Source of the DNA: an uncultured Clostridia bacterium
Lineage (GTDB): Bacteria; Bacillota; Clostridia; Oscillospirales; Oscillospiraceae
Assembly: GCA_947058885.1 (NCBI GenBank)
Contig: CAMSIF010000010.1
Span: 1-38,948, forward strand
Direction: 5' to 3'
DNA length: 38,948 nt
How positions within the stretch are numbered: the stretch's first letter is position 1; each line of letters starts with the position of its first letter. The notes beneath the pieces were generated by a model. It did not search any database. It was not told the origin of the DNA and saw only the letters and a list, made by a program, of their open reading frames with translations. The position numbers were made by a program, and so were the translations under genes. This document shows positions 29,764 to 38,948 of this stretch, in pieces.

Positions 29764-30195
29764 ATGTCAAAAAATACAGAGCTGCTCCAATTCGTTCACA
29801 AAAACGCGGAAATGGGCTGCGGTACTATTCCCAAGGTCTTGGAAATGGTAGAGGAGCCGGAACTGCGGCGCACACTGAACAGGCAGCTGGAGGAGTACAG
29901 CCAGATTGCGGGGGAGGCGGAACAGGCCATCCGTCTTCGCGGGGGAACGCCGCAGAATCCGGGTCAGATCAGCGAGGCCATGAGCGATCTCGCTCTGAAA
30001 GCCAAGACAATAACCAACCAGTCCGCCTCCCATATCGCGGAGATGATGATTAAGGGTTCCACAATGGGCACAGTCCAGATGACCAAACGCATACACGATT
30101 TGAAGGATAAGGGTGACCAGGAAGCCGTGGAACTGGCAGAACGCCTGCTGAAAACGGAAGAGAACAATATTCAGCAGTTGAAATCCTTCCTGTAA
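29764..30195 (+). CDS. Small helical protein, ferritin-like/DUF2383-like
   Basis: 143 aa all-helical, ELLQFVHKNAEMGCGTIPKVLE..IKGSTMGTVQMTKRIHDLKDKGDQEAVELAERLLKTEENNIQQL. Confidence 0.7.
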   Translation: MSKNTELLQFVHKNAEMGCGTIPKVLEMVEEPELRRTLNRQLEEYSQIAGEAEQAIRLRGGTPQNPGQISEAMSDLALKAKTITNQSASHIAEMMIKGSTMGTVQMTKRIHDLKDKGDQEAVELAERLLKTEENNIQQLKSFL

Positions 30196-30218
30196 CCGCA
30201 GTTTTCCGAAGACGCAGG

Positions 30219-30248
30219 GACGGCGCAGCATAACGCTGCGCCGTCTTT
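30219..30248. terminator. Intrinsic terminator between convergent genes
   Basis: GACGGCGCAGC-ataac-GCTGCGCCGTC-TTT. Confidence 0.8.
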
Positions 30249-30265
30249 ACATAAGCTTTCGCCGT

Positions 30266-30685
30266 CTAAAAGCCGTCTGGTTCCGTCATACCGCCGTTTT
30301 CTGCCAGCCGTTCCCAATATTCCAGCGGGAACGGCGGCTCCGCCAGAGGCCGTACCGCCAAGCTCATCAGCTTCAAAGGGCTGTCGTCGGCGGCCACACG
30401 GTTGGAGTGCAGAGTGCCGCAGCGGCGGCAGCGGTGAATAACAGCCCACTCGCCCCCCTTGCGCACCCACACGCTTACTGGTTCCATGACGCCGCCGCAC
30501 TCTGAGGCGCGGTCGCCAGGCTCATTATCTAAATGGAGACTGTGGAGGCAGTTCGGGCAATGGTTACGGTGCCGGGTACCGGCTCCGCCGGGGGCCGCCC
30601 TGTAGCCGCAGACACGGCAGGCAAACGGCGTTTTTTCATCTGGGTGAAGGCGTGCTCCATCCTTCTTATCACTGTATCGGGACAT
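30266..30685 (-). CDS. RNHCP domain protein (zinc-binding)
   Basis: FACRVCGYRAAPGGAGTRHRNHCPNCLHSLHLDNEPGDRASECGGVMEPVSVWVRKGGEWAVIHRCRRCGTLHSNRVAADD; RBS AGGAGG-aattt-ATG. Confidence 0.92.
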   Translation of the reverse strand: MSRYSDKKDGARLHPDEKTPFACRVCGYRAAPGGAGTRHRNHCPNCLHSLHLDNEPGDRASECGGVMEPVSVWVRKGGEWAVIHRCRRCGTLHSNRVAADDSPLKLMSLAVRPLAEPPFPLEYWERLAENGGMTEPDGF

Positions 30686-30690
30686 AAATT

Positions 30691-30791
30691 CCTCCTGGTA
30701 TGTTATAAAAACACATACGGGAGGCGTCGGGAAGCTAGTTCTCGCAGACCTCCCAGCTTCCAGCAATCTCCGAATCAAAATAATGCGTCAT
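30691..30791 (-). promoter_or_regulatory. Candidate translational attenuator: uORF plus alternative stems controlling the RNHCP RBS
   Basis: uORF ATG 30791 to TAG 30735; anti-SD stem CCTCC/GTATGT (30724-30713) with ACATAC/GGAGG (30703-30691); competing GGGAGG (30754-30749) with CCTCCC (30724-30719). Confidence 0.65.
30735..30791 (-). CDS. 18-aa leader peptide MTHYFDSEIAGSWEVCEN
   Basis: AAAGGAG 5' of ATG; ends TAG 50 nt upstream of the RNHCP start, in a different frame. Confidence 0.55.
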   Translation of the reverse strand: MTHYFDSEIAGSWEVCEN

Positions 30792-30966
30792 ACTTAGATA
30801 CGCTCCTTTCTTCCTTAGCTGCGTTGAACCGGCCAGTTCTTCCCCAGATTATCACAAACAGTTAGAAAATGCAAGTCCATCCGCCGTTGAACTATTTTAT
30901 CCACGCAAAGATTTTTTCCTCGAAAAAAGACGAAATCTGTGATAAGATGGTGCTGAGGTGATAGAA

Positions 30967-31617
30967 ATGAAAGACCAACAGACCATACTGGCGATTATTG
31001 ACGAATTAAAACGGCTGTATCCCGAGGCGGCGTGCTCCCTCCCCTTTGACAAAACAAAGGCGTATGAGCTGCTGTTCTCTGTCCGGCTGGCGGCGCAGTG
31101 TACAGATGCCCGGGTGAACATGGTGACGCCAACGCTCTACGCCCGCTTCCCTACCCTGGAATCCCTGGCGGAAGCCAGCGAGGAAGAGGTGGGGGAAATT
31201 ATCCACTCCACAGGTTTTTGGCGGGCCAAGGCCCGGGACATCGTGGCGGCCAGCAAAATGCTGGTCGAGGAGTACGGCGGGCAGGTGCCGGACACTATGG
31301 AGGATTTACTTCGCCTGCCAGGGGTTGGCCGCAAAACCGCTAATCTGATTCTTGGGGACGTCTACGGCAAAGAGGGCTACGTCTGCGACACCCACTGCAT
31401 CCGTATCACAGGACTTTTGGGCATCACAGACGGCAGCAAAGATCCCCTGAAGGTGGAAAACCAGCTGCGCCAGTGCATTCCGCCGGAGGAGAGCAACGAT
31501 TTCTGCCACCGGATGGTACTCCACGGCAGGGCGGTCTGCGTGGCCCGGAGGCCGGACTGCGAAAATTGCACGCTGCGGCCATACTGCAACTTTTGGACCG
31601 GAAAAGACGCGCGGTGA
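30967..31617 (+). CDS. nth: Endonuclease III
   Basis: HhH LPGVGRKTANLILGDVYGKEGYVCDTHCIRI; C-terminal Fe-S CVARRPDCENCTLRPYC. Confidence 0.96.
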   Translation: MKDQQTILAIIDELKRLYPEAACSLPFDKTKAYELLFSVRLAAQCTDARVNMVTPTLYARFPTLESLAEASEEEVGEIIHSTGFWRAKARDIVAASKMLVEEYGGQVPDTMEDLLRLPGVGRKTANLILGDVYGKEGYVCDTHCIRITGLLGITDGSKDPLKVENQLRQCIPPEESNDFCHRMVLHGRAVCVARRPDCENCTLRPYCNFWTGKDAR

Positions 31618-38893: not shown

Positions 38894-38948
38894 TGGCAGC
38901 GGGAGAAGGATTCGAACCCTCACATACGGAGTCAGAGTCCGCTGTGCT
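38894..38948 (-). tRNA. tRNA-Gln(CTG), partial (5' part beyond the window)
   Basis: Minus strand AGCACAGCGGACTCTGACTCCGTATGTGAGGGTTCGAATCCTTCTCCCGCTGCCA: anticodon loop CTCTGAC, T-arm GGTTCGAATCC, encoded CCA. Confidence 0.92.

Follow-up and report, generated by a model that had tools for sequence, protein, structure and literature searches.

The window analysed is a stretch of 38,948 nucleotides from an uncultured Clostridia bacterium (contig CAMSIF010000010.1), and the locus described here lies on its minus strand, where all the elements were read directly from the sequence (Table 1). The gene at this locus encodes an RNHCP-domain protein, identified by its match to PF12647 (E 6e-38, 129.2 bits for a cut-off of 24). 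It is preceded by a leader that carries a candidate promoter, a near-palindrome, an upstream open reading frame (uORF) with its own Shine-Dalgarno (SD) and several complementary segments forming the helices P1 to P4. A first-pass annotation, made from the sequence alone, had described the uORF, GGGAGG, CCTCCC, the GTATGT/ACATAC stem and the SD of the main gene and had assigned the downstream gene to RNHCP; all these elements, at the bases that it gave, and the assignment are confirmed. It had left out a second hairpin around the uORF end, GGAAGCT(GG)/(CT)AGCTTCC (arms 30761-30755 and 30736-30730), here named the protector hairpin; the minimum-free-energy fold of the leader holds it together with the SD hairpin.

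Table 1. Coordinates of the leader elements and of the RNHCP gene in the window.
Feature	Position	Strand	Basis or remark
Candidate promoter TTGCAT-17-TAATCT with TGn extended -10	30846..30874	-	Sequence
Near-palindrome GAACTGGCCGGTTC, right behind the -10	30826..30839	-	Also in L050; perfect palindrome in L051
uORF Shine-Dalgarno, AAGGAG core	30802..30806	-	Sequence; SD before 158/171 homologous uORFs
uORF, 18 codons, product MTHYFDSEIAGSWEVCEN, long form	30735..30791 (ATG 30791-30789, TAG 30737-30735)	-	Frame conservation
Protector hairpin GGAAGCT/AGCTTCC (stems P1/P2 of the window)	30730..30761	-	Predicted fold; P1 and P2 arms cognate-specific across leaders
GGGAGG, anti-sequester arm (P3 5' strand) within the uORF	30749..30754	-	Complementary to 30724-30719; pairing of the core in nearly all leaders
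CCTCCC, switching arm, partner either GGGAGG (P3) or SD (P4)	30719..30724	-	Pairing analysis
P4 sequester hairpin CCTCC-c-GTATGT...ACATAC-ca-GGAGG	30691..30724	-	3' arm is the RNHCP Shine-Dalgarno, 30695-30691
RNHCP-domain protein, 139 aa	30266..30685 (including stop codon), ATG 30685	-	PF12647

The promoter proposed in the same annotation holds only in part: its letters, TG extension included, are present but match the consensus poorly, and the site is absent from the listing of the promoter consensus scan. The TGnTAnnCT part and the GAACTGG that follows recur in the leaders L050 and L051, which belong to two species of the same genus. The near-palindrome GAACTGGCCGGTTC has a single exact copy in the genome; it is possibly an operator, i.e., a second, transcriptional layer of control, or else a 5' hairpin. 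No terminator-like site was detected at 30150-31000, and the P4 hairpin runs directly into the gene start; in the absence of an intrinsic terminator in the leader, transcription attenuation was rejected. It must be noticed that the whole leader of the window is not more stable than its dinucleotide shuffles (z -0.30). Its stability is thus ordinary for its composition, folding energy alone is no evidence, and the case rests on comparison.

RNHCP genes were searched in the 301 genomes of the window's family and were found in 62 of them, and the same leader is present at 38 of the 63 RNHCP loci examined in these 62 genomes (some genes being partial). Once aligned, the 38 leaders share TCGGAGATTGT-n4-5-GACCGGGAGGTTTGCG, a variable loop, CCTCCC, a second variable loop and AGGAGG. 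A covariance model was built from them; it matches the window at 30777-30691 (52 bits, E 2.8e-16), the window being itself a member of the training set. At the thresholds used, the model has matches in 107/301 genomes of the family, 51/397 of the order and 38/392 of the class. The weakest of these matches are doubtful, since obvious false positives, e.g., coding regions, occur among those scoring under about 28 bits. The model finds the leader in other orders and in Negativicutes, and a pattern scan of named genomes gave further copies in Oscillospiraceae, Lachnospiraceae, Anaerotignum sp. MB30-C6, Peptococcaceae, Desulfotomaculaceae and Pelosinus; one more copy, on a plasmid of Selenomonas ruminantium, is followed by a GNAT gene.

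Many model matches are not located before RNHCP: the well-scoring ones that were inspected precede GNAT, RsgA or, in one case, MFS genes. The GNAT acetyltransferase (~208 aa) and the RsgA-type GTPase (~360 aa, a second copy) are unrelated to each other and to RNHCP. No erm-like gene (23S rRNA methyltransferase) was found downstream among the leaders classified, and that of the window is followed by RNHCP. At the locus L118, a Mef-like MFS exporter lies behind the same CCGGGAGG/CCTCCC/SD arrangement (39 bits), without any recognisable uORF having both SD and start codon. Rfam scans of the window and of the 38 related loci, at gathering thresholds, return no family for the leader but only tRNAs. 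One partial tRNA match lies at 38897-38948 of the window, where it is cut by the contig end.

Three criteria of a translational attenuator were considered: (i) upstream of the main gene, a translatable leader ORF that has an SD of its own; (ii) a hairpin that sequesters the SD of the main gene; (iii) an alternative pairing by which this SD would be freed upon a ribosome stall in the leader ORF. The first-pass hypothesis depended on the conservation, in relatives, of the uORF and of both competing complementarities; this check was run and the hypothesis survived it. As for the uORF, an SD and a start codon are found in frame in 157/171 leaders, as compared with 0 and 9 in the other two frames. 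The start codon is located 9-13 codons (typically 11±1) before the anchor at the CCGGGAGG arm, and the SD present in 158/171 leaders is mostly spaced by 7-10 nt. The uORF part of the check thus holds (fixed frame and fixed distance), and criterion (i) is met in 157/171 leaders, translation itself being inferred. The gap between the uORF stop and the main gene is 46-93 nt, on account of which translational coupling was rejected.

The uORF exists in two forms. In the short form, which is the majority, the stop codon directly adjoins CCGGGAGG; in the long form, that of the window, the frame runs on through ...SREVCxx and the stop comes ~22 nt later. Codons 2-5 vary at all three positions in the RNHCP class, and from these counts it is inferred that the length and position of the uORF are conserved and its peptide sequence is not. 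This bears on amino-acid attenuation, i.e., a pause of the ribosome at codons whose amino acid is in short supply, for instance Cys in the long form. In favour of that reading, long-form uORFs hardly vary in REVC (Cys in 16/18). On the contrary, the short form lacks those codons, codons 2-5 of the RNHCP class vary freely, the codons of REVC belong to the constrained pairing arm and the downstream genes are not biosynthetic. Amino-acid attenuation was considered very unlikely and rejected.

The pairing part of the check holds too. Pairing is seen in 82-90% of the alignment cells of P4, P3 (GGGAGG/CCTCCC) and the P2 hairpin (88.9% for P4 and 90% for P3), and both the percentage paired and the covariation score exceed those of all 500 column shuffles and of every slid register. 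The cores of the two competing complementarities, GGGAGG/CCTCCC and CCTCC/GGAGG, are near-invariant, the latter being paired in nearly all sequences. The complementarity of the flanking extensions is specific in the RNHCP class, where the arms of P1, P2, the P3 extension and the P4 extension fit their own partners better than arms swapped between leaders (sign-rank p 1e-6 or smaller, a value overstated by the relatedness of the leaders). In the GNAT class, P1 and P2 are cognate-specific; the P3 and P4 extensions, as defined in the test, are not, and the predicted state without ribosome is already half open. A tree-aware covariation test on 160 anchored leaders gave no individually significant pair (best helix pair at E about 17). 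Because core pairs without variation leave no room for covariation, this null result weakens the structure without contradicting it.

A second alternative is that the leader binds a ligand or a protein, i.e., that it is a riboswitch or an autoregulatory site (for zinc or for RNHCP itself, for example) in which the uORF is incidental. The high conservation of the core sequence and the conserved P2 hairpin, ACC-GGGA-GGT with a GNRA-like loop, would agree with it. Against it, the frame and distance of the uORF are fixed, its stop codon abuts the pairing arm, the loops are variable, unrelated products stand under the same leader and no Rfam family matches. A binding leader is thus regarded as unlikely, and the ribosome-mediated reading is retained.

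Switching was modelled by removing the leader 5' of the leading edge of the ribosome, folding the remainder and reading the accessibility of the main-gene SD. For 50 RNHCP leaders, the mean accessibility is about 0.11 without ribosome, 0.40 when the edge stands at the CCGGGAGG arm and 0.02 once the edge is beyond this arm, as at the stop codon. The best stall position gives a mean of 0.41, which a double G-to-C substitution in GGGAGG lowers to 0.03; in shuffled leaders the accessibility stays level at about 0.4. The edge of a ribosome precedes its P-site codon by about 15 nt, therefore the exposing stall corresponds to an arrest near codons 5-8. No opening of the SD is predicted in the folding for a stall at the start codon. 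The difference between stall and stop is greater than 0.2 in 38 of the 50 leaders. The first-pass proposal that an early stall exposes the SD, and that a completed uORF keeps it hidden, is thus supported by the folding of these 38 leaders.

The same proposal is not met at equilibrium in the window's own copy, whose predicted SD exposure is ≤ 0.01 at all stall positions tested and rises (0.2) only with the ribosome edge past +30. The sequestering hairpin is too stable: P4 has 11 base pairs vs. 6-7 bp for P3. All three criteria hold in the family, the third one as a prediction from folding and not at equilibrium in the window. If the copy of the window works, it is inferred that P3 probably must form co-transcriptionally, before the SD arm is transcribed. 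The alternative is a constitutive down-tuning, in which the hairpin just keeps RNHCP translation low and the window copy no longer switches. The wide margin by which P4 beats P3 at equilibrium speaks for it. On the contrary, the window and the two same-genus species all keep the uORF, GGGAGG, CCTCCC and the GTATGT/ACATAC stem, and the two relatives are predicted to switch (0.49 for L050 and 0.60 for L051 at stall vs. 0.00 at stop; partly open, 0.44, without ribosome). Loss of switching in the window is therefore held to be unlikely.

The reading preferred is a ribosome-mediated translational attenuator of erm logic that senses ribosome stalling, and it is considered likely. Without ribosome, the P1/P2 protector hairpin at the uORF end would hide GGGAGG, and CCTCCC would pair with the main-gene SD (P4), leaving the gene off. 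When a ribosome reads the uORF through to the stop codon, it would cover GGGAGG; P4 would still form and the gene would remain off. A ribosome arrested around codons 5-8 would break the protector hairpin and leave GGGAGG uncovered; the freed GGGAGG would then capture CCTCCC (P3), the SD would be released and RNHCP would be translated. The anatomy, its conservation, the fixed frame and distance of the uORF, the competing complementarity and the predicted switching in most relatives are shown. That the switch works in cells is inferred, no expression data being available, and so is the cause of the stall, i.e., ribosome-targeting antibiotics or a similar translation stress.

The erm-type logic put forward in the first-pass annotation is thus supported overall, while the response it suggested to translation stress or ribosome-targeting drugs stays an inference. 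Genes under such attenuation logic are usually drug-induced, as is the case for erm and for the attenuated genes induced by ribosome-targeting drugs VmlR (PMC9226507), hflXr (PMC6310831) and toiL/topAI (PMC12121999). Drug induction is therefore likely here by analogy; without expression data it is unproven.

Three known systems are the closest. (i) The erm/cat-type attenuators have in common with the present leader a leader peptide, competing hairpins, a sequestered main-gene SD and a stall within the uORF predicted to free it. They differ in their sequences and peptides and in the downstream genes: an rRNA methylase or acetylase there, RNHCP, GNAT and RsgA here. Moreover, one leader family is here common to unrelated gene families, and in its RNHCP class it is the uORF length that is conserved, the peptide hardly at all. 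(ii) The toiL uORF of E. coli topAI-yjhQ, induced by five antibiotic classes (PMC12121999), also senses stalls, at different positions, and the structure at the ribosome-binding site opens. However, sequence and host are unrelated, and no opening of the SD is predicted here for a stall at the start codon, as occurs with tetracycline at toiL. (iii) The uORFC-6-1 motif before hflX (PMC8632094) and the lincomycin-resistance gene hflXr (PMC6310831) likewise present a uORF in a structured leader before a ribosome-acting GTPase; it is a Bacillales motif with an Arg-Leu-Arg peptide, whereas no such peptide exists here and the GTPase is RsgA-like. The mechanism itself is thus of a known kind; the leader family, its gene set and its sharing by unrelated genes are what is new. 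The first-pass annotation knew of no described attenuator for RNHCP proteins, and no description was found in the open-access literature searched. The leader family is also undescribed in the open-access literature searched on attenuation and RsgA; most subscription journals were outside this scope and a prior description is not excluded.

The function of RNHCP has to be approached indirectly. The AlphaFold model of the protein is poor (pLDDT 56, pTM 0.36), its PDB sequence matches are only zinc-finger-like (E about 0.01 or worse), and PADLOC gives no defence match for RNHCP and GNAT. RNHCP as a protein domain is unmentioned in the open-access literature searched, where no functional paper was found. 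Three genomes encode an RsgA fusion whose C-terminal part is an RNHCP domain (L189:720-2156, L190:828-2222 and L191, minus strand). RsgA, RNHCP and GNAT are adjacent and in one direction in an operon (L192:498-2547), a GNAT-RsgA fusion is carried by a plasmid of Roseburia sp. 831b (WP_075681267.1, L199:2986-4566), and a TetR-type regulator, RNHCP and RsgA follow each other on a Vibrio coralliilyticus plasmid (L201:1848-3944). All these loci are without the leader. Each of the six genomes with a leader-borne RsgA also has an RsgA of ~300 aa, next to which the leader-borne one is a second copy, and the same is observed in the fusion and operon genomes. Leaderless RNHCP genes may also lie behind a MarR-like regulator gene (L195:1469-2445, confirmed by Pfam; L015, L019, L022, L035 and L039, by eye), which possibly provides an alternative control. 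The leader is missing from the gene fusions, the RsgA-RNHCP-GNAT operon and the RNHCP loci with a MarR-like neighbour, and its control over them was rejected.

RsgA is a maturation GTPase of the small ribosomal subunit. Given this linkage, RNHCP is most naturally inferred to act at the 30S subunit. If the attenuator holds, RNHCP, the RsgA paralog, GNAT and the exporter may be inferred to constitute a ribosome-protection or resistance set. A bolder reading, for which the balance of evidence falls a little short, is that an undescribed family of ribosome-sensing leaders, present in Clostridia and Negativicutes, has joint control of a ribosome-protection or resistance module with three parts (RNHCP, a dedicated RsgA paralog and GNAT); in that case RNHCP would be a small-subunit factor that is inducible and gives tolerance to a class of translation inhibitors. 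For this widespread domain, the putative stall-sensing leader would tell when the protein is needed, i.e., when ribosomes are stalled, and the RsgA linkage where it probably acts. The leader makes the question of RNHCP and of the RsgA paralog testable with simple reporters, and can serve as a sequence tag for uncharacterised, possibly drug-inducible ribosome-protection genes in gut bacteria. The presence of a ribosome-assembly GTPase on plasmids is unexplained: RsgA homologues were found on 186 plasmid records, 52 of which are typed as conjugative.
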